A stretch of DNA of 64,000 nucleotides. It comes from Candidatus Poribacteria bacterium (GTDB taxonomy: Bacteria > Poribacteria > WGA-4E > UBA9662). This document shows, one piece after another, positions 17,122-61,413 of this stretch. The stretch spans positions 1 to 64,000 of the forward strand of contig PAQF01000025.1 in NCBI GenBank assembly GCA_002709695.1, in the 5' to 3' direction. Below the pieces are notes generated by a model. The model had not been told where the DNA came from, searched no databases, and saw only the letters and a program-made list of their open reading frames with translations. Positions within the stretch are counted from its first letter, which is position 1. Each line of letters opens with the position of its first letter. The position numbers and the translations under genes are program-made.

Positions 17122-17925
17122 CTAGTATTGGGTTTTAACATTTCCCCAAGTGGCGGCAAGCTTTTCAATACTGTCCACTGACATGGCTCCATCAATTCCA
17201 TCCTCAAAGATGGGTTTAAGCTCAGCTTCACTTAACGCTTTATCAAAGACCATCGCCTCATCCACAGTAATATCACCATACCTAGCACCACAACAATTAT
17301 CACGCCCAATCCAGAGAGGTTTAGCTTCTTCTGCCGCAAGCGGTTCCTTGTTAAGTTTCAATTCACTTTCAATTTTGCCATCAATCAGAATCTTCCACTC
17401 TCCCGTTTTGCTATCGAAGGTACCTGTATACATATGCCACTCGGTAATTTTCTTGGGACCAACTTCACCATCTCTCCAACCACCAGGCTTGTTCCAACAA
17501 CCACCATTGCAAATAGGGAAAGAAACTGTTACCCCTCCTGTATTGTTATGAATAATATAGGCGTCTCTCTTAGACATGATGAATCCGTGGTTATTCCATC
17601 CTGGAGTTTCACTTTTCACCCAAGCAGAAACGGTAATTGCCTTCGTTGGGTTCGCATGTTCCTTAATGGCAACAAAACCAGTTTTACCGTCAAACTTTAT
17701 GGCTTTACCAAACTTACCATCTACCCAGTCACAACCACCTTCAAGTTCCCCTGTAAGTTTATTGCCAGAGTCGTCTTTCGTTTTTTTTCCGCTACCTTCG
17801 TCAAACTTCCACAATCCAACAAGATGCTTTTCGTAATCAAACGCAAAACTTGGAGTTACCAACATCAACCCCATAAACATTAGGCCAAAGTACATCAAAG
17901 CTATTTTCGATACTCTAATTTTCAT
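17122..17925 (-). CDS. secreted LamG/concanavalin-A-like lectin domain protein (paralog A)
   Basis: Signal peptide; LVGLWKFDEGSGKKTKDDSGNKLTGELEGGCDWVDGKFGKAIKFDGKTGFVAI...FDKALSEAELKP; C-terminal tail KLAATWGNVKTQY. Confidence 0.9.
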   Translation of the reverse strand: MKIRVSKIALMYFGLMFMGLMLVTPSFAFDYEKHLVGLWKFDEGSGKKTKDDSGNKLTGELEGGCDWVDGKFGKAIKFDGKTGFVAIKEHANPTKAITVSAWVKSETPGWNNHGFIMSKRDAYIIHNNTGGVTVSFPICNGGCWNKPGGWRDGEVGPKKITEWHMYTGTFDSKTGEWKILIDGKIESELKLNKEPLAAEEAKPLWIGRDNCCGARYGDITVDEAMVFDKALSEAELKPIFEDGIDGAMSVDSIEKLAATWGNVKTQY

Positions 17926-18098: not shown

Positions 18099-18923
18099 CT
18101 AATATTTGGTCTTAATTTTAACCCACTTGGTAACCAGTTTACTGGCTACTTCTACAGCAGTACCAATTCCATCAAATCCCTTGTCAACAAGGGGTTTAAG
18201 CTCAGCTTCACTTAATGCGGTATCAAAGACCATTACCTCGTCTACAGTAACATCTCCAAACCGGCTACCGCAACAATTATCGCGCCCAATCCAGAGAGGC
18301 TTATCTTTTTCTGCCGCAAGCGGTTTCTTGTCAAGTTGCATTTTACTTTCAACTTTGCCGTCAATAAGAATACGCCAATCTCCCGTTTTGCTATCGAAGG
18401 TACCTGTATACATATGCCACTTGGTAATGTCTTTGGGACCAACTTCGCCGTCTCTCCAACCCTTAGGTTTGTTCCAGCAAGCACCGTTACAAATGGGGAA
18501 AGAAACAGTCACACCGTCTGTATTGTTATGAATAATATAGGCGTCTCTCTTAGACATGATGAACCCGTGGTTATTCCATTTTGGAGTTTTGCTTTTTACC
18601 CAAGCAGAAACAGTAATAGCCGTTGTCGGGTTTGCATGTGGCTTAATGGCAACAAAACCAGTTTTACCATCAAGCTGTATGGCTTTACCAAACTTACCAT
18701 CTACCCATTTACCACTGCCTTTGAGTTCCCCTTCAAGGCCGTTGCCAGAAGAATCCTCTATTGCTGTCCCTTTACCTTCGTCAAACTTCCATAGCCCAAC
18801 AAGATGGTCTTCGTAATCAATTCCTGCCTTTGCAAAACTTGGAGATACCATGATCAACCCCATAAACATGATACTGGTAAATATCAAGACCACCCCTAGT
18901 AACCTGATCTTCATTTGTTTCAC
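18099..18923 (-). CDS. secreted LamG/concanavalin-A-like lectin domain protein (paralog B)
   Basis: Highly similar to paralog A throughout (WNNHGFIMSKRDAYIIHNNT..., PLWIGRDNCCG); tail KLVTKWVKIKTKY. Confidence 0.9.
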   Translation of the reverse strand: MKQMKIRLLGVVLIFTSIMFMGLIMVSPSFAKAGIDYEDHLVGLWKFDEGKGTAIEDSSGNGLEGELKGSGKWVDGKFGKAIQLDGKTGFVAIKPHANPTTAITVSAWVKSKTPKWNNHGFIMSKRDAYIIHNNTDGVTVSFPICNGACWNKPKGWRDGEVGPKDITKWHMYTGTFDSKTGDWRILIDGKVESKMQLDKKPLAAEKDKPLWIGRDNCCGSRFGDVTVDEVMVFDTALSEAELKPLVDKGFDGIGTAVEVASKLVTKWVKIKTKY

Positions 18924-29837: not shown

Positions 29838-32800
29838 ATGCACAGATCCCTTGTCCATGTAACATTTTTCCTATTTGTTTTTCTGCCGATCTCCTTTGCC
29901 GCGGTTCAGGTTATTGAATCAGACCAATCCGGTGTTACAATCAATTTCGACCTACCTAGTCCTAAATTTTCGAAGATTCAACCTGAACAACGCAGTACAT
30001 ACGACCTCATTTCCTACATAGGTAGCAGTTTCACCTCAAAACCAGGTAACCCGCAGGTTCCTACCTCAAAACTGATGCTTGGTGTTCCACCTGAGACAGA
30101 ATTACGAGTAACAACACTTTGGAAAAAAACCCAAACACGTCAAGGGTTCCGAATCCTACCGACACCTTATAAAACACTTCGCAGTGAAGCAAACAATGGT
30201 TTTGAATCAAGTCAAGCAGAATGGCGCGAAGACGGTAGTGCTTATCAGAAACCAGATTCCCTTTACCCTCAACGCCCAGTAAAAATTGTATCTGACGGGT
30301 ATATCCGATCCCAACGCATCATTATACTTGAAATCCATCCAATCCAGTACATACCATCAAAACGTTCAATCCAAATTCATTCTCAGATAAGAATCCGAAT
30401 TCAATTTCAGAATCCCACGACATTTGCTAATACATACCATTCCACATCATATCACGAAGACAACAAACTTTTTGAGCTTAGACTTCAAGACCAATTACTT
30501 AATTATGAACAAGCTAAATCCTGGAGAATTCAAAGCAACAAAGCCTTAAGAGCACCAAGAATTCAGGACACACAACTCTCTCCTCGCCACAAAATCCTCC
30601 TAGAAAAAACAGGGATTTATCGTGTAACAAGTAAAAATCTTAAAAACAAATGGGGAATTGATTTAAGTGCTGAAGACCCACGAAATTTCCACCTAAGAAA
30701 CAACAACATGGAAATTCCTCTCTATATTCATGGTGAGGAGGATGGCCACTTTGGTCAAGATGATTACATCCAATTTTTAGGCCACAACGCACGCAATCGT
30801 TATACGCGTTGGAACGTCTATTGGCTAAGCATCGAGCCTAAGCGGGGCAAACGGATAGCAGAAATTGATGCAACTCCTGTCGACCCAACAGCAAAATCGG
30901 TACCATCCTTCCGGTCCAACATCTACTTTGAAGAAGATCACCTACACAGCAATTTGCAACATGTATTACCCGAAAATGTCTCCCAAGGAGACAAGCACGC
31001 TTGGTTTGCATCCATTGAAAGTTGGTTTTGGACCGGAATTAGGAACGGTGGTGATCTCAACCAAATGTACCTAGAATTCCCACTTTATGATCTAGCATCA
31101 AGTTTCAATCAACCAAAAATTCTAGTTAACCTACAAGGCGGAACACCCTTAGACCATGAAATTCTAGTATCAATCAATGATATTCGAATAGATCTAGCAG
31201 AATGGTCCAGTCAAGATACTCTAAGCATCAACAAAAACCTACGACTCTGGGACGATTTGAAAGACGCTAGCAAAGGAGAGTTGAATGCTATTTCCCTAGC
31301 ACGTATTGATTCAACAGTAGAAGACGACACAACTCGATACCCCTACCACGTTTACATTAATTCGTTTGAAATCGAATACACCAGATTACTGAAGGCAGTC
31401 AAAGATTACCTAATGTTCTCTTCACCCCAAAGCCAAGATTCACATGAAGTTCGAGTACGCCGCAAATTAAAATACACAATCCAGACTTTCCTTTCTCCAA
31501 AAATCGAGATCTTTGAGCATGATGGCAAACAATTAACAGCCAAAATGAAAAACCCACATATTCAGAAAATCATCCTCGACCGCCAAGAACAAAAACGTTT
31601 GTTACACATTGAAGAGGATTTACCAACCGAAATCGCCTACGACGCAACATTCCAGGCTCCCGACTCACATGACGCAAAATTTGTTGCAGTATCTTCAGTC
31701 GGAGTCCTAAGCCCCTATAACGTTGAGACAGTCCAGCCAAGCGATCTACGCTCTTCTACAAACATTGCGGACTATATAGTTATTGTGCACCCTGTTTACC
31801 TCGAATATGCACAAGAATTAGCAGCTTGGAGATCCACTACCAAAGGAGGTGGGCACCGCACAAAAGTCGTAGACGTCACTGAAATTTACAATGTATTTGG
31901 TGATGGCATAGCTACCCCAAAAGCAATCAAAGATTTTCTATCTTATGCCTATTATAACTGGCAATCTCCTGCCTTCTCGTATGTTGTATTATTTGGAGAT
32001 GGCACTTGGGACTTTCGAGGAATTGATAAAGAAACCTACCCAGAACCACCGGAAACAACCGGATATATTCCAACGCATTACATTTGGTCTCAATCCTTTG
32101 GCCAAACTTCGGTCGATCATTGGTACACAACAATCAGCGGAATTGACGAACTTCCAGATTTTTATATCGGTCGAATTAGCGTTGAGACGGACCTACACGC
32201 TCGAAGTATAATAGATAAAATCATCAATTATGAATCCAATCCTCCCAAAGGCGAATGGCAACGTAAAATTATTTCTATAGCAGACGATGAGGTCAGCAAT
32301 TCAGGTGATTTTATTTTCAAAAAGAGCCTCAAAGCAGTTGAAGAAAGCCACACCCTATTAGGTTACGAAACAACTCGAATTTTCCTAGAAGATGTGATCA
32401 AAAAAGTGAAGGCTAACCCATCAGGCTACAATAATGAGCTACCCCGCCGAGTTGCCAAAGACATGGTGATTGACGCATTAAGCGAAGGAGGTGTCATTGC
32501 CCAATATGCGGGACATGGAGGACGAATTGTCTGGACACATGAAGCAATCTTCGATAACAATTCCGTCGATCTGCTGGATGAAACCAATCACTTGCCGTTT
32601 ATGCTGGTTTTAAGTTGCTACAACGGCTATTTCGATGCTCCGGGAGAACCTAGCTTAGCTGAGAGATTGCTCCGTCGTAATAAAGGAGGAATCATCGGCA
32701 TGCTAAGTGCCTCAAGATTAACCTATGGGAGTGGAAACGATGCGCTGAACAGAATTATTTTCGACGCAATCTTCAAAAGGAACGTGCGTGAAATTGGCCC

Positions 32801-35800
32801 ACTCGCAATGGATTCTAAAGTTGAGCTGCTAACTACAGAAGGTACCGGACAAATCGACGTCATGATGGCATATACGCTCTTTGGAGACCCTGCAATGCGG
32901 CTAAACATGGCAGATTATGAAATCCGACCAACCATTGAAACGAGAACAGTCGCAACCGGACAAAACCTCAAAGTCAAATCCGGAACAATCATGCGAGTTA
33001 ATTACGATCCTCAACAAAAGAGAAAAATCTACACACCCGTTACAGATTTCAATGGCACATTACAACTTAAAGCCATATTTCCCGGAACCTATCAAACGGT
33101 ACAAATAAACCCAGAAGAAATCGACTGGGATGATTCTAAAGAAACCGAAATTGATCTTTATAAAGGCGATGTCATCATCGAACAGAAGATAACAATCCAA
33201 AACGGAAAATATCCTGCTACTATGCTGACTGTACCTGATGGTATACGCGAAGGACAAGCACATATCGAATGCTATGCTAGCAGCACAAATGCAACAGCAG
33301 TTGGCGGAGCTTCTTTCAGTGTTTTTTCACCCAAGATTCTCGACATTCAAGCCAAGTTAATCAATGACAAAAATTTCTCTGTTTCTGTTCAAGTCTCAGA
33401 TGAATTAAACAGTAAAGGGATCAAATCGGTCATTCTCGAATGGCGTGACCCATTGAAGTACCGTTGGCAAGAAGTAGCGATGGAACCAGATACCAACCGC
33501 AAAATGGGATGGTACATCGTTCCATCTACTCTAAAAGTCCCTGAAAGCGGTGAAGCGATTCGTTACCAAATTAGTGTATCCGACATTGATGGATACGAAG
33601 CCCTCTCAGACATCCTCGAATTTCGCCCATTTGTCTTGCCAAATCTAAAGTCAGTCAATGTTCAATCATCCTCAGAGAGTCTAATCTACTATGACTTCTC
33701 CAAATCGAAGAAAATCTGGGAATTGAATGCTGACATCGAACAAACCGAACCTTTTGAATTAGCGCAGGAGGTCGAAATTGCTTTTTATAGTAGCAACCCG
33801 GATCGTAATAAAGATGGCATCATTGATCCTGACATAGCAGAACTCGGTCGAGCATATATACCATCAACAGCTTGGCGAAAACGGCCAAAATCAGTTGAGG
33901 AATCCATGCCACGAGCCTTTAGAGAAAACCCACTTAATACCAACCTAATTGCTACAGCCAAAATCCAGCATGAATTTGCTTTTGGCCAATATGAAGCCTA
34001 CGTTTGCGTTGACCCAGACAACAAAATCAAAGAAATAAGCAAAGACGACAACATAGGATATGGGCAATTGACAATTGAAAGTACAATTATTGGCAATGTT
34101 GATAAACGGGTTTTTAGTCGAGATAATGTCCTCAACTTGCGGTTCCCAAAATCCAGTATAGCCCAACCCAACATCTTAACGGTAACCAAGATAAATGATG
34201 ATAAACAACTACCAAAAACAATCCAACAAGATAGCCTCAACGAAATTAAGCTAGCAAATCAAGGAAATGCTTATCACATAGTCTTGAATAATGGGCAGAA
34301 CACTCAATTGCTTCAACCTATCACAGCTGAGGTAAACTATGATGTAGAAGCAATAAAAGAGCAAATCCAGACAGATTTAGCCTTAGATGAAATACGACAA
34401 TTGAGCCCTGATCAAATTGAAGCAATTAATGCAGGACTCCAATTGCAGGCGGAAGAAATTGGTCTGTATATCTGGCGAGATGACTTGCAAAAATGGCTAA
34501 GACAACCCACAGAAACAATAAAAGCGGCAAATGGACAAGTTCAAATTAAGACTGCGGTATCAAACCTAAATACAAGCAACCAATCGGATAGAGTCATTTC
34601 TAGTGTCAAAGTTGACCAGAATGGAGTCAAAGTAGGAAGTTGGATTGTGATGTTCACCTCCCCAACAACCTATCGACTTATGGTTCGTGAAAACAATCAC
34701 CCCCTTGAAATAGTTGATCCCAACCGTTTTTTCAGCCAAGCCGATGTAGACACTAATTTCAAAGATGGGTTAGCCATCACATTCACTCCCGGGCAGAAAA
34801 AATTCCAATTTGGAGATGTTTTGACCTTTCAAGTACAAAAGTCAAATCTGCAAGAAGGTACAGCCACTCGATATCATGCGGTGTCATTTCAGTATAACAA
34901 CGATGGTTCAGGAATTTTGCAATATATCCAAACAGGTAGAAAAACCAATATGCCAGAGGATCAATGGATAATCCTTTTTCTAGATGCAGACACTTTCCAA
35001 ATAGAAGGCCAACGTACTGGCACTTTAGCTAAAAAAGGGGTAGTTGGCAAACCGTATTCTAATACGGATCTCGACTTGCACCTACAAATTAATGCAGGGG
35101 ACATCGAATTTTCTGCCGGTGATCGTTTTCGATTCGAGACACAGTCAATCGGAACAATACAAGCCGAATTATCCCAACTTGGCACGATTGCACTGATGCG
35201 GAGTGACGACACCATTTCACCAGATATTCAACTAACCATTTCCAAACAAAATTTCAGTGACGGTGATCCTGTCTCAAAAGAACCAATCATACAAGCAACA
35301 ATTTCCGATAATAACGGAGTTAATCCGGAATCTATTCAGCTGGAACTCAGTCACAATAGCCGAAATTTCGATACTATTTCAGAGAAAAATTACGACTTAA
35401 GTTATCGCCAAGGCACAAATCAAATCATATTAAATTACCCATCACCACAACTGGACCCGGGCGGGTACCAAGTTCGGCTGACAGCGAAAGATCTCGATGG
35501 AAATCAAGCAAATGCAAAAACTGAGTTTCAAGTTCTAAAAAACTTCCAGATGCTGAAGGTCATGAACTATCCTAATCCTTTCAAAAGAGACACAACTATC
35601 ACCTGTGAGCTGACAATGCCAGCAGATAAAATGACCGTACAAATCTATACTATTTCCGGACGGATGATCTGGCGAGAGGAAGTAAATGCAAATGCTGGTT
35701 TTGTAATGATACCATGGGAAGGGAGAGACTCAGATGGTAAGAAGGTCTCCAACGGAGTCTATTATTGCAAAATTAACAGCACAGTTGGAGAAAAAGTAGA

Positions 35801-35834
35801 AAGTGAAATTATCAAAATAATGAAATTAGAATGA
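29838..35834 (+). CDS. secreted C25 (gingipain-like) cysteine peptidase family protein with C-terminal sorting/FlgD-like domain
   Basis: Signal peptide; His/Cys active-site regions GVIAQYAGHGGRIVWTHEAIFDN and PFMLVLSCYNGYFDAPGEPSLAERLL; C-terminal NYPNPFKRDTTI...GRDSDGKKVSNGVYYCKI. Confidence 0.85.
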   Translation: MHRSLVHVTFFLFVFLPISFAAVQVIESDQSGVTINFDLPSPKFSKIQPEQRSTYDLISYIGSSFTSKPGNPQVPTSKLMLGVPPETELRVTTLWKKTQTRQGFRILPTPYKTLRSEANNGFESSQAEWREDGSAYQKPDSLYPQRPVKIVSDGYIRSQRIIILEIHPIQYIPSKRSIQIHSQIRIRIQFQNPTTFANTYHSTSYHEDNKLFELRLQDQLLNYEQAKSWRIQSNKALRAPRIQDTQLSPRHKILLEKTGIYRVTSKNLKNKWGIDLSAEDPRNFHLRNNNMEIPLYIHGEEDGHFGQDDYIQFLGHNARNRYTRWNVYWLSIEPKRGKRIAEIDATPVDPTAKSVPSFRSNIYFEEDHLHSNLQHVLPENVSQGDKHAWFASIESWFWTGIRNGGDLNQMYLEFPLYDLASSFNQPKILVNLQGGTPLDHEILVSINDIRIDLAEWSSQDTLSINKNLRLWDDLKDASKGELNAISLARIDSTVEDDTTRYPYHVYINSFEIEYTRLLKAVKDYLMFSSPQSQDSHEVRVRRKLKYTIQTFLSPKIEIFEHDGKQLTAKMKNPHIQKIILDRQEQKRLLHIEEDLPTEIAYDATFQAPDSHDAKFVAVSSVGVLSPYNVETVQPSDLRSSTNIADYIVIVHPVYLEYAQELAAWRSTTKGGGHRTKVVDVTEIYNVFGDGIATPKAIKDFLSYAYYNWQSPAFSYVVLFGDGTWDFRGIDKETYPEPPETTGYIPTHYIWSQSFGQTSVDHWYTTISGIDELPDFYIGRISVETDLHARSIIDKIINYESNPPKGEWQRKIISIADDEVSNSGDFIFKKSLKAVEESHTLLGYETTRIFLEDVIKKVKANPSGYNNELPRRVAKDMVIDALSEGGVIAQYAGHGGRIVWTHEAIFDNNSVDLLDETNHLPFMLVLSCYNGYFDAPGEPSLAERLLRRNKGGIIGMLSASRLTYGSGNDALNRIIFDAIFKRNVREIGPLAMDSKVELLTTEGTGQIDVMMAYTLFGDPAMRLNMADYEIRPTIETRTVATGQNLKVKSGTIMRVNYDPQQKRKIYTPVTDFNGTLQLKAIFPGTYQTVQINPEEIDWDDSKETEIDLYKGDVIIEQKITIQNGKYPATMLTVPDGIREGQAHIECYASSTNATAVGGASFSVFSPKILDIQAKLINDKNFSVSVQVSDELNSKGIKSVILEWRDPLKYRWQEVAMEPDTNRKMGWYIVPSTLKVPESGEAIRYQISVSDIDGYEALSDILEFRPFVLPNLKSVNVQSSSESLIYYDFSKSKKIWELNADIEQTEPFELAQEVEIAFYSSNPDRNKDGIIDPDIAELGRAYIPSTAWRKRPKSVEESMPRAFRENPLNTNLIATAKIQHEFAFGQYEAYVCVDPDNKIKEISKDDNIGYGQLTIESTIIGNVDKRVFSRDNVLNLRFPKSSIAQPNILTVTKINDDKQLPKTIQQDSLNEIKLANQGNAYHIVLNNGQNTQLLQPITAEVNYDVEAIKEQIQTDLALDEIRQLSPDQIEAINAGLQLQAEEIGLYIWRDDLQKWLRQPTETIKAANGQVQIKTAVSNLNTSNQSDRVISSVKVDQNGVKVGSWIVMFTSPTTYRLMVRENNHPLEIVDPNRFFSQADVDTNFKDGLAITFTPGQKKFQFGDVLTFQVQKSNLQEGTATRYHAVSFQYNNDGSGILQYIQTGRKTNMPEDQWIILFLDADTFQIEGQRTGTLAKKGVVGKPYSNTDLDLHLQINAGDIEFSAGDRFRFETQSIGTIQAELSQLGTIALMRSDDTISPDIQLTISKQNFSDGDPVSKEPIIQATISDNNGVNPESIQLELSHNSRNFDTISEKNYDLSYRQGTNQIILNYPSPQLDPGGYQVRLTAKDLDGNQANAKTEFQVLKNFQMLKVMNYPNPFKRDTTITCELTMPADKMTVQIYTISGRMIWREEVNANAGFVMIPWEGRDSDGKKVSNGVYYCKINSTVGEKVESEIIKIMKLE

Positions 35835-42087: not shown

Positions 42088-45000
42088 ATGCGAAATCAGA
42101 TCTTTTTACTGATTATTTTTTTATATCTTGGTGAGGTAAAAGTACATTCTTATTTTTCTACACCAGGCCGTGGCGATTTATACACAATTGAGTCTTTAAT
42201 CCAATTATCTGATGCTATCTCTCAAGATGTTGATGGCAACTATGAAATCCATACCGATATCCAGATCTCAAACAACACCCAACCCGATATCCTTAAGCTT
42301 GAACCAGGCACTTCCTTAAAATTTGTTCAGAACACCACACTGAAAATAGATGGAGTACTAATCGCTATTGGGACAAAAACAGCACCAATCACCTTTAAAG
42401 CTGTTTCAGAAAAATGGACAGGTATCACATTCAGCAGGAAGGCAGATAGTAATGCCTGTATTCTGCAACATGTGAGCATTGAGAATGCCCAAATCGGAAT
42501 CTCCTGCCAACTAGCTTCACCCCAGATTACCAGCAGCCAAATCAATAACTGTCACCAACATGCTATTTCGATGCTATCATCAACTCCAACAATATCAGGA
42601 AACAGCTTTTCCACTCACAAAGGAGGCACAATCATTCATATCGATTCTAGCAAAGCTGACATTAGCCAAAACAGATTTGAGATGCAGAGCTGGCAGACAG
42701 CAATTAGACTAATTAAATCTGATTCACGCATTAGCTCTAACCATTTCAATGGAGGAAAAACAGCCATCAGTTTTCGGCAAGCTATGCCTCAAATAGAACG
42801 CAATCATATTTCACATTGTACAATCGGTATTTATGCAGATCAAAGTACCCCAATAATCAGAAGAAACCAATTTTTTTCCACGCAGACAGCTATTAGCATC
42901 TGGAACTGTGACGAAGTTGCAATTGATAAAAATATCATAGAACAAAGCAAACACGGAATTTATCATAAAAATTCAAATCTAATTGTGGATGCAGAATTAA
43001 TCTCAATTGAGGAAAAACGACAGATAAAACGTCCAAAACCCATACCAAAAACTGATATTAAACCCAACACCAGACAAAACCCAAATCATCTTCCACTCAC
43101 AACCGAAAAGCAATCTACCCCCAAACGACCATACCCAAAACAAAAAAATCCAGAAGAATCAGCCAAGATGAACCAGATTATGGATCATCTCTTCTCTATA
43201 GGCAGGTCCCATTTCAAAAAAGAACAATACAGTCAAGCATTAACAAACTACAATCGCTTACTTGATCTTGTCACCGGTAAAGAAGACGAACTGGCTAACG
43301 TTTATTATCACCGTGCTTTAACCCACTACAAACTGGAAAATTACAATCAAGCAATCAAAGACGTACAGACACTATTAGGTGTAGATCCGGCTCCGAAAAT
43401 TGAGTCAGCAGCCAAGTTTATTCTAGCAAAAAGCGCTATTCATAATAATATGGCTAAGTTGGCAGAAAAAACACTTCAGGAACTTAAAACCGAAAGCCAG
43501 TATCACCAATTAAGTCTAATCGAATTGGCCAACCTTTATGAAAAAAACGAACACTATCAAAAAGCAATTCGAACCCTTGAAGAATTGTCTCTTTCACTTA
43601 AAGATCGCCAAACTCTGATTACCACACTCATTCGTATGGCTAACATTTGTTATCAACAACAGAATTTTCCCAAAGCAATTGGATACTATCAGGAAATGAT
43701 CGAAAATTTCCCGGGAGCTAAAGATCTAGATACAATCCAGTACGCCATCGGGGAATGCTGGGATGCAGAGAGAGAAAAAGAAAACGCTATTTCAGCCTAT
43801 AAGAAACTCATCAATAATTATCCAGATTCCAAGCTAATAATCTCAGCCAAATGGAACTTGGCAACCTTGAGCCACCAAATAGATCAAAACACCAATGCCT
43901 TTTACTATGCGAAAAAAATTATCAACCAACATTCACAATCTTCCATTCCAAGTGATCAACAGATTGTGTATGCCGCTCGAAACTTGGCAACTAAGTTAAT
44001 CCGAGAAGACACAACACTTACAAAACACCCTACGCTTTTTTCGATTAAAAACTTGGTAGCAATTAGTCACTTCCCATTAGCAACGGCGAAAGCTAAGTCC
44101 GAAGCCCTTTTTGAACTCGGGAATTTATACACAACGACAAAAAAACTTGGCGAAGCTATTTCAAGCTACAAACAAGCACACGATGAAACGCAATCGGACG
44201 AAATGAGAAAAAATATTCTGTTTCGTTTAGCCATAATCTATTTCGACCTCAAAGATTACAAAAAATTTATCCCTACAGCATCGCAACTGCTTGAATCTAG
44301 CACTGTCCTTGGTAATGAGATGACATCGCAATTGCAGATCAAGCTAGGGCTAAGTAACTTAAAATTACAGAAAACAGATCAAGCTAAATCGGCATTCGAG
44401 CAAGTATTACTGATACCAAATGTTTCTGCAGAAATAGAGACCCGTACACATTTCCACCTAGCAGAAATCTACCAAGCCAATCAACAACTTAACCAAGCAA
44501 AGACAAAATATCAGCTAATCCTATCAACTATTAATGCAAACACAACTAATTTAGTCTTTAGAACAATCCGAACAAAATCAGCATTTCAGTTAGCGTATCT
44601 AACCGAGGACATAAATTTATATGACCAGGTTATATTAGCTAACTTGACCTCCAAAATGACAGCCATATCCCTGTATCGTCAAGCACTTTTACTTGATAAG
44701 AATAATCAAAATACCAAATCAAAAGCGAATCTTGAACTCCTGGTTGACCGTTTCTCTGGCACAACTGATTCTGAAATTCGCTCGTTGGTCGATAACGCTA
44801 CCCTGCGGCTAATGGATGATACCGAAGATGTCAACCATGCGATTCCACACACTTTAGCTTCATTAGAAATAGCCGAGAAAAAAGGAGACCCTCAGCTACT
44901 CGCACAAATCCAATTCCGATTAGCAACATTGTATAACCAAAACGAAGACACATTTTCCAAATCATTATCACTGTTCCAATCCGCATACCAAAATGCGGTG

Positions 45001-46125
45001 AAATCTGGAAACAAAAATTTGATTAATACAACCGTATTCCAAGCAGGGCAGTCTGCTTATCAAAGCAATGATTTCCAAACAACTATCAGTCGGCTTGAAT
45101 TTTTTGTCAATCAGTTCCCGAAAGATTCCAAACTAATGACAGCTATTCATTATCTAGCTTGGTCCTACTTCTCAGTAGCAGAAAACACCAAATCTCAACC
45201 GAAACGCAAAAAACTCTTGCGACAAGCTTCAAAACAGTTTGATCATCTAATCACACAACAAGCTACCCCAGAAAGATTAGCAGACTGGATATTCCAATCC
45301 GCCCAAGCACTGAACATGGCCGGTGAGACAATTTCAGCGATCACCAAATATCAACAAATATTAACTCAGTTTCCAAATCACAATCTAGCTGAAACCTCAG
45401 CATACACTATTGCAAATTTACAATATTCAATGGAGCAATTCGATATCGCCTTAAAAAGTTACCAGAAATTCTGTTCACAGTTTCCCAATAGTGAATGGTT
45501 TGACGAAGCTTTTTATTCAACAGCAACATGTCAAGAAAAACTAGGACAAACTGAAAAAGCGATAAAAATTTATAACCAAACTACCCGGCGATTTCCCCAC
45601 CTAATGGTAGCAGTAAACGCCCAAGTCAATATTGCACACCACTATTTTAACCAGAAAGCTTACAATCAAGCACACAGTGCATACCAAAAACTGACAAAAC
45701 AGAATTTCCCAGCCATTACCCCCAGTTTCCAAAGAAAGGTTCACCACTGGATCAGTGACACAGAAAACCTACTGGCCGAAGCACCATACCAAAAAGCAAT
45801 TACGATGCTCTCCAAAGCAGATACCGGCTCAAAGAATCCAGATGAACAGGAAACACTATTCGCGCGGAAAGCAATTAAAGAATTCAACCAACTCATCTCG
45901 AATTATCCAAATTGCATTTACGTAGATCATGGGCTAGCTTCAATTGGAACAGCTCATGAGATACTCAACGAATGGAAAGGAGCCATTTTTGCATATAACC
46001 AATTAATAAAACGTTATGAAAATAATGTGCCAACGGATCCAAATACAAAGAAGTTTCTGAACCATGCCCAAACACGTTTAGACGCCATTGAAACGTTTCT
46101 CTTCCAACAAAAGAAATTCGAATGA
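42088..46125 (+). CDS. large secreted protein: N-terminal right-handed beta-helix, Pro/Lys-rich linker, many TPRs
   Basis: Beta-helix turns (ITSSQINNCHQHAISMLSSTPTISGNSFS, IIRRNQFFSTQTAISIWNCDEVAIDKNII); TPRs such as AIGYYQEMIENFPGAKD and AISAYKKLINNYPDSKLI. Confidence 0.82.
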   Translation: MRNQIFLLIIFLYLGEVKVHSYFSTPGRGDLYTIESLIQLSDAISQDVDGNYEIHTDIQISNNTQPDILKLEPGTSLKFVQNTTLKIDGVLIAIGTKTAPITFKAVSEKWTGITFSRKADSNACILQHVSIENAQIGISCQLASPQITSSQINNCHQHAISMLSSTPTISGNSFSTHKGGTIIHIDSSKADISQNRFEMQSWQTAIRLIKSDSRISSNHFNGGKTAISFRQAMPQIERNHISHCTIGIYADQSTPIIRRNQFFSTQTAISIWNCDEVAIDKNIIEQSKHGIYHKNSNLIVDAELISIEEKRQIKRPKPIPKTDIKPNTRQNPNHLPLTTEKQSTPKRPYPKQKNPEESAKMNQIMDHLFSIGRSHFKKEQYSQALTNYNRLLDLVTGKEDELANVYYHRALTHYKLENYNQAIKDVQTLLGVDPAPKIESAAKFILAKSAIHNNMAKLAEKTLQELKTESQYHQLSLIELANLYEKNEHYQKAIRTLEELSLSLKDRQTLITTLIRMANICYQQQNFPKAIGYYQEMIENFPGAKDLDTIQYAIGECWDAEREKENAISAYKKLINNYPDSKLIISAKWNLATLSHQIDQNTNAFYYAKKIINQHSQSSIPSDQQIVYAARNLATKLIREDTTLTKHPTLFSIKNLVAISHFPLATAKAKSEALFELGNLYTTTKKLGEAISSYKQAHDETQSDEMRKNILFRLAIIYFDLKDYKKFIPTASQLLESSTVLGNEMTSQLQIKLGLSNLKLQKTDQAKSAFEQVLLIPNVSAEIETRTHFHLAEIYQANQQLNQAKTKYQLILSTINANTTNLVFRTIRTKSAFQLAYLTEDINLYDQVILANLTSKMTAISLYRQALLLDKNNQNTKSKANLELLVDRFSGTTDSEIRSLVDNATLRLMDDTEDVNHAIPHTLASLEIAEKKGDPQLLAQIQFRLATLYNQNEDTFSKSLSLFQSAYQNAVKSGNKNLINTTVFQAGQSAYQSNDFQTTISRLEFFVNQFPKDSKLMTAIHYLAWSYFSVAENTKSQPKRKKLLRQASKQFDHLITQQATPERLADWIFQSAQALNMAGETISAITKYQQILTQFPNHNLAETSAYTIANLQYSMEQFDIALKSYQKFCSQFPNSEWFDEAFYSTATCQEKLGQTEKAIKIYNQTTRRFPHLMVAVNAQVNIAHHYFNQKAYNQAHSAYQKLTKQNFPAITPSFQRKVHHWISDTENLLAEAPYQKAITMLSKADTGSKNPDEQETLFARKAIKEFNQLISNYPNCIYVDHGLASIGTAHEILNEWKGAIFAYNQLIKRYENNVPTDPNTKKFLNHAQTRLDAIETFLFQQKKFE

Positions 46126-59724: not shown

Positions 59725-60474
59725 TTAATAATTTGTCTTAATATTGCCCCAGACGTTAACCAATTTGCCACTAGCTTCTACTGACAATGGCTTCATTAAA
59801 GCACCAATCTCCTTCTTCGTCAAAGGCACATCCAAATAGGCAACTTCATCAATAACCCCTTCGAAGTAATCTACGGCTGCATCATTAGAGAATCCAACCC
59901 AAACACGTTTTTGCCAATCAAAATCAGAATGGTCATAGTCATGCGTTCCAACCTTTTCTCCATCAACGTAAGCTGTTTGGCCCTTTTTGTCTTGCACAAC
60001 TAAAGCAATATGATGCCATTTACCATCTGCTACTTTTTTTCCGGTTTGCCAACCGGGCCCCTTCCAAGTTCTAAAACTGATTTGTCCACCAGCCAAAAAG
60101 AAATGCCGATCATGCCCACCAGCACCAGCAGCACCATCCAGAACAGAATAAATCCCTACATTTCCCTCACTGGTTTTGATCCATAGAGCCATGGTAAAAT
60201 TAGATTCAGGAACATCAATCACAGTCTCGATGTAGGAATTTCCACTACCAAATTTGATGCCTGCCCCAAACTTACCTTTTTTTTCACGTTTTGCTCCGTT
60301 CATCAGCTCGCCATCATTGCCTTCACCACTGATGTCTTTAACTTTATTCCCGTTACCCTTGTCAAAAGAATAATGAATCACGAAGTTTTTATCAAATTTA
60401 TTAGCTGCACTACCAACCTTTCCAAAGACAATAACCAAACTCATTATCCATAAAGTCAATGCTAAAGTTCTCAT
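59725..60474 (-). CDS. secreted LamG/concanavalin-A-like domain protein (paralog C)
   Basis: Signal peptide; FVIHYSFDKGNGNKVKDISGEGNDGELMNGAK...; WHHIALVVQDKKGQTAYVDGEKVG; tail KLVNVWGNIKTNY. Confidence 0.9.
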   Translation of the reverse strand: MRTLALTLWIMSLVIVFGKVGSAANKFDKNFVIHYSFDKGNGNKVKDISGEGNDGELMNGAKREKKGKFGAGIKFGSGNSYIETVIDVPESNFTMALWIKTSEGNVGIYSVLDGAAGAGGHDRHFFLAGGQISFRTWKGPGWQTGKKVADGKWHHIALVVQDKKGQTAYVDGEKVGTHDYDHSDFDWQKRVWVGFSNDAAVDYFEGVIDEVAYLDVPLTKKEIGALMKPLSVEASGKLVNVWGNIKTNY

Positions 60475-60672: not shown

Positions 60673-61413
60673 TTAATGACTGGTCTTAATATCACTCCAA
60701 GTACTAGCTAATTTGCCTTTAGGCTCTACAGGAACCATCAATTTCATCTTAACCTGATCCCCTGTTAAGGCCGCAGCAGTATAGGAAGCTCCATCAATGA
60801 CTCCGTTGAAGTAATCCTTTGCAGCATCATTGGAAAAACCAATCCAAACACGTTTTTGCCAATCAAAATCAGAATGGTCGTAGGCATGCGTTCCAACCTT
60901 TTCTCCATCAACGTAAGCTGTTTGACCTCCGCCATCCTTAGCGACCAAGGCAATATGATGCCATTTACCATCCGCTACGTTTCTGTCTGTAGCCCAGGCA
61001 GGCCCTTTCCAAGTCCTAAAATTGATTTTACCGTCTTTCAAAAAGAAATGGCGATCATGTCCACCAGCCCCTTTAGGACCATCCAGAACAGAATAAATTC
61101 CCACATCACCTGCATCAGTTTTAACCCATACTCCCATGGTGAAATTTTTCTCCGGCACATCTACAACCACTTCGACGTGGCCATCATTACCATCAAGTTG
61201 TACTCCACCACCAGAATAACCGTTAGCAATCCACTTAGCACCACCTTTTAATTCACCGTTATTTCCATTTTCACTGGAATCTTTACCAGGATTTCCTTGA
61301 TCATTGAAAGTAAGGTTATACACATGAGGTAATCCAGTGACTTTTGCCTGAACGACAACTCCAAATGTCATCACCAAACCCAAAGCCAACAGAACTAGCA
61401 TGAAATTTTTCAT
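60673..61413 (-). CDS. secreted LamG/concanavalin-A-like domain protein (paralog D)
   Basis: Similar to paralog C (GAGGHDRHFFL, FRTWKGPAW, THAYDHSDFDWQKRVWIGFSNDAAKDYF); tail KLASTWSDIKTSH. Confidence 0.9.
   Translation of the reverse strand: MKNFMLVLLALGLVMTFGVVVQAKVTGLPHVYNLTFNDQGNPGKDSSENGNNGELKGGAKWIANGYSGGGVQLDGNDGHVEVVVDVPEKNFTMGVWVKTDAGDVGIYSVLDGPKGAGGHDRHFFLKDGKINFRTWKGPAWATDRNVADGKWHHIALVAKDGGGQTAYVDGEKVGTHAYDHSDFDWQKRVWIGFSNDAAKDYFNGVIDGASYTAAALTGDQVKMKLMVPVEPKGKLASTWSDIKTSH

Follow-up and report, generated by a model that had tools for sequence, protein, structure and literature searches.

The C-terminal tags PEP-CTERM, GlyGly-CTERM and MYXO-CTERM, which belong with exosortase, rhombosortase and myxosortase, respectively, consist of a transmembrane stretch and a basic end, and are processed by membrane proteases. 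PEP-CTERM, GlyGly-CTERM and the sorting domain of the Type IX secretion system (T9SS) were reportedly each spotted early from sequence, and from each an enzyme or transport route then unknown was discovered. MYXO-CTERM is described as universal within one phylum (PMC11980579). The shortest T9SS signals reported, those of Prevotella intermedia, are 43–55 residues long and comprise beta strands with the motifs B, D and E (PMC11969387). In Bacteroidota, distinct shuttle families serve distinct T9SS signal types (PMC12618676). Encapsulation peptides are short helices joined to diverse proteins by a disordered linker (PMC12339742).

In this paper, we describe a short C-terminal tail that recurs on exported proteins of Candidatus Poribacteria. 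Poribacteria are mostly uncultured, and are often found in sponges. Type A sorting domains of the T9SS were reported in them in 2014, the structural genes of the system not being found, and microcompartment shell genes were reported as well (PMC3909097). Our analysis concerns a stretch of 64,000 nucleotides, positions 1 to 64,000 of contig PAQF01000025.1 (assembly GCA_002709695.1), to which we refer as ‘the window’; the source genome as a whole (5,196,966 bases in 87 contigs); and other genomes within and outside the phylum. We conclude that the tail probably serves as an address label, by which each protein is docked to some site or machine at the cell envelope.

Four tailed LamG proteins in the window

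Four minus-strand open reading frames (ORFs) in the window encode LamG proteins, termed A, B, C and D (Table 1). Each has an obvious N-terminal signal peptide and, in a Pfam scan, a single Laminin_G_3 domain (PF13385). The original prediction held that all four end in K-L-x3-W-x2-[IV]-K-T-x-[YH]-COOH, and that they form two clearly different pairs, one of which is distinguished by the motifs ICNGxCW and DNCCG. The ORFs bear this out in each respect: the ending is present in 4/4; A and B are 73% identical, whereas A shares 23% identity with C and 22% with D; and the two cysteine-containing motifs occur in A and B only. Apart from these four, the window contains no tail, even in relaxed form, whichever frame is read.

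Table 1. Tailed LamG proteins and PorU-like gene of the window
Feature	Position	Strand	Description
LamG protein A	17122..17925	-	267 aa; ORF ends in KLAATWGNVKTQY, then stop
LamG protein A, domains		-	Sec-type signal peptide, about 17842-17925; one Laminin_G_3 domain, 17218-17691
LamG protein A, C-terminal tail	17122..17178	-	VDSIEKLAATWGNVKTQY, then stop; matched by tail profile A1
LamG protein A, predicted tail helix	17128..17160	-	Residues 256-266 of AlphaFold2 model, after low-confidence linker 249-255
LamG protein B	18099..18923	-	274 aa; signal peptide; Laminin_G_3, 18198-18671; ends in KLVTKWVKIKTKY, then stop
LamG protein B, tail	18099..18155	-	VEVASKLVTKWVKIKTKY, then stop; tail profile match
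LamG protein C	59725..60474	-	249 aa; signal peptide; Laminin_G_3, 59806-60240; ends in KLVNVWGNIKTNY, then stop
LamG protein C, tail	59725..59781	-	VEASGKLVNVWGNIKTNY, then stop; tail profile match
LamG protein D	60673..61413	-	246 aa; signal peptide; Laminin_G_3, 60751-61194; ends in KLASTWSDIKTSH, then stop
LamG protein D, tail	60673..60729	-	VEPKGKLASTWSDIKTSH, then stop; tail profile match
PorU-like Type IX sortase	29838..35834	+	1998 aa; NF033707, 404 bits (cut-off 420); own T9SS type A sorting domain (TIGR04183)

Consensus and position of the tail

The consensus of 295 tails reads [LA]-[AP]-V(94%)-[ED]-P-x-[GDN]-K(89%)-L(87%)-[TA]-T(74%)-T(60%)-W-G(73%)-x-[IL]-K(96%) or, in short form, V-x4-K-L-[AT]-T-x-W-[GAS]-x-[IL]-K, with 17 residues in the conserved part. 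Valine occupies W-10 in 94% of these tails, and the motif thus reaches upstream of the lysine with which it was originally thought to begin. The residue after the tryptophan is small (Gly, Ala or Ser), and the conserved positions are basic at both ends. The last lysine is followed by 0–10 variable residues, mostly 1–5. The motif as first written therefore survives only in part: the core, K-L-x3-W-x2-[IV]-K, holds for all four proteins, but the ending T-x-[YH]-COOH is not general, and is incidental to the window proteins because the number of residues after the last lysine varies. The sample of 295 is biased toward the pattern used to search for it; the LamG sample discussed below was chosen by domain, and is free of this bias.

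That the tail is terminal is a direct observation. Among 1,045 non-overlapping ORFs fetched, the strict motif lies no more than nine residues from the stop in 222 cases, and in the remaining two at 10 and 14 residues. Many of these stretches were fetched for containing the motif, but internal motifs were equally fetchable. One strict match, in a protein that is MazG-like by inspection (L051), has neither a signal peptide nor the wider consensus, and was set aside as chance.

Abundance and distribution

The DNA pattern for K-L-x3-W-x2-[IV]-K matches the source genome 74 times, versus 10 for the reversed pattern, and about 64 of the 74 places lie 1–7 codons before a stop and share the longer consensus. 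A profile built from 64 tails finds about 118 matches in this genome at E<0.1, and 132 at E<=10, in open frames of up to 538 aa. Tandem arrangement of tailed genes is frequent: for 75 of 127 tails, a second lies no more than 2 kb away.

A search with a stricter DNA pattern yielded matches for 81 of the 85 Poribacteria genomes but for none of the 302 taken from other phyla; the reversed control has zero matches in every genome of the Poribacteria survey. A still stricter pattern, applied to 84,980 species, matched 94 stretches, all of them from Candidatus Poribacteria. Within the searches made, then, the tail is both phylum-wide and confined to the phylum. These scans used strict consensus patterns, and divergent tails in other phyla would escape them. 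One family (f7, genomes G006–G011), with 0–1 strict matches, was considered as a tail-less clade and rejected: the small LamG proteins read from it carry a variant tail, VDPxGKLATxWxxLK, and the natural tail-less contrast that the family seemed to offer falls away. As far as sequence alone can indicate, the tail appears to be ancestral to the Poribacteria. The same family encodes giant proteins of 800–3000 aa with several LamG domains each (L247, L248, L250 and L262, in G007, G008 and G010); their C-termini fall outside the stretches fetched, and their ends were not read.

Proteins that carry the tail

The bodies of tailed proteins fall into about 20 sequence clusters, one of which is a chance match. 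With 42 of the 65 carriers in the source-genome set, LamG proteins form the largest group, but by no means the only one. The tail was predicted not to be confined to the LamG fold, and it is not. Pfam domains on the carriers include, besides Laminin_G_3, F5_F8_type_C (discoidin), CBM9_1, 3keto-disac_hyd (3-keto-disaccharide-hydrolase-like), Kelch, PD40, Cohesin and HmuY, and several carrier families have no Pfam match at all. This modularity is observed, not inferred. Carriers are small soluble proteins, about 150–540 aa in length, and nearly all look like extracellular binding proteins.

The tail was also expected to be enriched on secreted proteins. A signal peptide is detected in 254 of 277 tailed ORFs (about 92%), versus 152 of 549 others of at least 200 residues, and the association is thus directly evident. 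The detector was a simple one of our own making. By inspection, many of its 23 misses are frame-start problems, truncated genes or failures of the detector itself. Further transmembrane segments are absent from 268 of the 277 and present in nine; lipoprotein-like signals were flagged in nine, several of them doubtful.

A number of individual genes deserve mention. Three cohesin-domain proteins (L278:349-1488, L284:490-1923 and L287:343-1959) each end in the tail. In two of the three (G000:C78 and C21), a gene for a protein with a Type IX sorting domain is found some 2 kb away, and a cohesin-based assembly on the surface is possible. Two LamG genes look broken, and are pseudogenes or assembly errors: in one (G000:C75:6220-6740; L069) an intact tail is encoded, though out of frame with the ORF, and in the other (G000:C3:89606-89854; L033) the stop falls inside the tail. 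Near-identical tailed genes of 301 aa occur at the starts of two contigs (G000:C2:145-1050 and G000:C12:375-1280; L031 and L041), and are either a recent duplication or an assembly artefact.

The tail in relation to the LamG fold

When LamG proteins were sampled by domain rather than by tail, 73 of the 76 with a single domain proved to end in the tail. The ends of the three exceptions look truncated or altered, and one of these is the gene noted above whose tail is in another frame (L069). The LamG domains of large multidomain proteins in the source genome, on the other hand, lack it. When divergent LamG proteins are compared in pairs, identity is 43% in the tail and 25% in the body. Of the 73 tails, 98% have Gly, Ala or Ser at W+1, and nearly all have a small residue at W-3.

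The AlphaFold2 model of protein A (m3685c87eb616) has a mean pLDDT of 87.9, falling to about 66 in the linker block and 75 in the tail block. In this model the LamG fold ends at residue 248, residues 249–255 form a linker, and residues 256–266 form a separate helix. On this evidence, the tail is not part of the LamG fold. Whether it is helical is a matter of inference: the model of protein A is the only good one to show a free helix, and beyond this there is only periodicity. The model of a kelch carrier also has a C-terminal helix, but with a mean pLDDT of 59.7, and below 50 in the tail, it is too poor to use. From W-5 to W+4, the conservation moment for an alpha period of 100 degrees (p=0.067) exceeds that for a beta period of 170 degrees (p=0.79), which is suggestive, no more. 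On a helical wheel, Leu, Trp, Ile/Leu and the small residues at W-3 (Ala or Thr) and W+1 (Gly, Ala or Ser) share one face, and the unconstrained positions W-1 and W+2 lie opposite. The tail may, then, possibly be a helix with a single binding face. A tryptophan with small neighbours suggests binding in a pocket; this too is inference.

A proposed function

One thing generally expected of a sorting or docking tag—one conserved tail, at the terminus, on many non-homologous exported proteins—is satisfied here. The reading first proposed, that of a sorting, anchoring or docking signal, gains support from the non-LamG carriers, from the position of the tail outside the fold, and from the enrichment of signal peptides. 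We regard it as very probable that the tail is a signal of some such sort; which sort is unproven.

Our preferred reading, to which we assign a probability of roughly 55%, is that the tail docks non-covalently, as a terminal helix, to a shared receptor in the envelope. Small soluble proteins would be exported through Sec by ordinary signal peptides, and would then fold. A flexible linker would connect the folded protein to a short amphipathic helix, exposed as its extreme C-terminus. With the face formed by Leu, Trp and Ile/Leu, and small residues between, this helix would lodge non-covalently in a groove of an envelope receptor common to all tails, which is probably a scaffold protein of the outer membrane, the periplasm or the surface. 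Such a receptor would retain binding proteins of more than 100 kinds in each genome, or deliver them to the same place. The single receptor and the non-covalent binding are inferred, and so is the final location; whether this is the periplasm, the outer membrane, the surface or the medium, no computed result determines. More tentatively, with the balance somewhat against it, the tail might belong to an undescribed delivery or docking system peculiar to the phylum, in which a dedicated receptor or secretion machine reads the 17-residue helical tail. If so, the envelope of each cell would be the site of assembly of over 100 different lectin-, cohesin- and propeller-type proteins, and larger proteins would take the Type IX route instead.

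A tag of this sort would also be expected to have a dedicated partner, whether enzyme, receptor or translocon; a survey of neighbouring genes, together with proximity tests, identified no receptor or processing enzyme for the tail, and the T9SS parts described below are present without any link to it. Three genes that recur beside tailed ones, namely a peroxiredoxin-like gene, a gene of 376 aa and a PorV-family gene, were considered as partners and rejected, for they represent mainly one orthologous locus in many genomes. One gene order is conserved: in many Poribacteria, a tailed LamG gene is followed by a peroxiredoxin-like gene whose product ends in F-[YF]-R-G-x-W (L138, L145, L148, L150, L152, L156 and 15 other loci). 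The gene of about 376 aa joins this arrangement in 16 loci; the copy read (L140) has a Tat-like N-terminus.

Type IX secretion and other alternatives

The main rival to a docking tag is a very short, second kind of T9SS signal, read by a SprA-like translocon or a PorV-family shuttle, that would carry its proteins across the outer membrane. Type IX machinery is present. T9SS type A sorting domains occur in 85/85 Poribacteria genomes (40 in the source genome), PorU-like genes in all 83 genomes searched, one of them in the window, and a divergent translocon resembling SprA, roughly 2,200 residues long, in 84/85 (at G000:C86:77854-81759, or L240:9090-15590, in one instance). These parts answer the question left open in 2014 (PMC3909097). 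Near the PorU-like gene of the window lies a gene for an exported, 1345-aa TPR protein (42088-46125, plus strand) that partially matches PorW/SprE (NF052312, E 1e-24, below the cut-off) and is possibly another Type IX component. Nine genomes tested have 16–21 PorV-family matches each, and possible shuttles are thus many; Bacteroidota, as already described, allot different shuttle families to different signals (PMC12618676). Tails and type A domains also occur on different proteins. None of the 40 domains of the source genome coincides with a tail site, and the domains sit on larger proteins, the tails on smaller ones. The idea that the tail simply replaces the T9SS domain was rejected, since both are phylum-wide and, in the source genome, on different proteins.

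The known T9SS signals, however, are rich in beta structure, and even the shortest (PMC11969387) are well over twice as long as the tail. A T9SS beta-sandwich calls for at least some 40 residues, and this is unmet by 17 conserved residues, modelled as a helix in A, and a 7-residue linker. TIGR04183 gave no match at E<=1 in an NCBIfam scan of ten tailed proteins. Nor, in the source genome, are tailed genes closer than chance to genes for T9SS domains (p=0.32) or for PorV-family proteins (p=0.17 at 5 kb). A T9SS role remains possible but unsupported, and we consider it unlikely, if still a good deal stronger than the explanations that follow.

A second alternative dispenses with a receptor: the tail would be a cationic amphipathic helix that anchors the protein in the membrane surface. 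Trp and Lys flanking a narrow face of Leu, Trp and Ile suit an interfacial helix, as do the two basic ends, and nearly all tailed proteins (268/277) have no other membrane segment. Against it stand the small residues at W+1 and W-3, and a Trp tail that is missing from so few of the domain-chosen proteins (3/76); constraints of size and identity such as these are more in keeping with a specific pocket than with lipid. One would not expect a generic lipid anchor, moreover, to be confined to one phylum, and we find this explanation improbable.

Encapsulation peptides, short helices on a disordered linker (PMC12339742), share the anatomy that the tail has in the model of protein A, and shell genes have been reported in Poribacteria (PMC3909097), so that loading of a protein-shelled or membrane-bound compartment comes to mind. 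Sec signal peptides on 254 of 277 carriers would remove these from the cytoplasm, however, and the carriers are binding domains of many kinds rather than enzymes of one pathway; there is very little chance that this explanation is right. Least likely of all, and already contradicted by the same tail on unrelated folds, is a functionless C-terminal extension inherited by an expanded LamG family, for although LamG proteins are the largest group and often in tandem, the tail is better conserved than the body, lies outside the fold, and is missing from the LamG domains of large multidomain proteins.

Comparison with known systems

The tail marks those proteins most likely to be in contact with host or seawater glycans, and more than 100 envelope proteins can be listed by it in each genome. 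It is a marker by which unknown secreted proteins can be named, and the peptide itself could be used to fish for the receptor. In the proteins scanned, the tail is not covered by any NCBIfam or Pfam model, a comparison of the tail profile with PDB chains gave chance matches only, and a search of the open-access literature found no paper on such a motif in Poribacteria; subscription journals and preprints were outside this search.

The tail resembles several known tags without coinciding with any. Like the T9SS type A domain (TIGR04183, Por_Secre_tail), it is C-terminal, and occurs on varied Sec-exported proteins, dozens per genome. That domain, however, is a beta domain of about 70 residues with motifs of its own, whereas the tail has about 17 and is helical in the model. 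Like PEP-CTERM, GlyGly-CTERM and MYXO-CTERM, it is a short, homologous C-terminal tag on many otherwise unrelated exported proteins; unlike them, it has no hydrophobic run in the logo of 295 tails. The tails contain no LPXTG-like motif or hydrophobic segment, and they are, as originally predicted, devoid of LPXTG, PEP-CTERM and T9SS-domain features, with the qualification that T9SS domains do occur on other proteins. Microcompartment encapsulation peptides are short terminal helices on a flexible linker, as the tail is in the model of A, but their cargo stays in the cytoplasm whereas tailed proteins carry Sec signal peptides. And Laminin_G_3 proteins (PF13385), to which the four window proteins and most other carriers belong, have the tail outside the domain that defines them. 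The kind of tag, C-terminal sorting or docking, is thus a known one; the family and its anatomy appear to be new. The tail bears the same signature as the PEP-CTERM, GlyGly-CTERM and T9SS tags, in a largely uncultured phylum associated with sponges.
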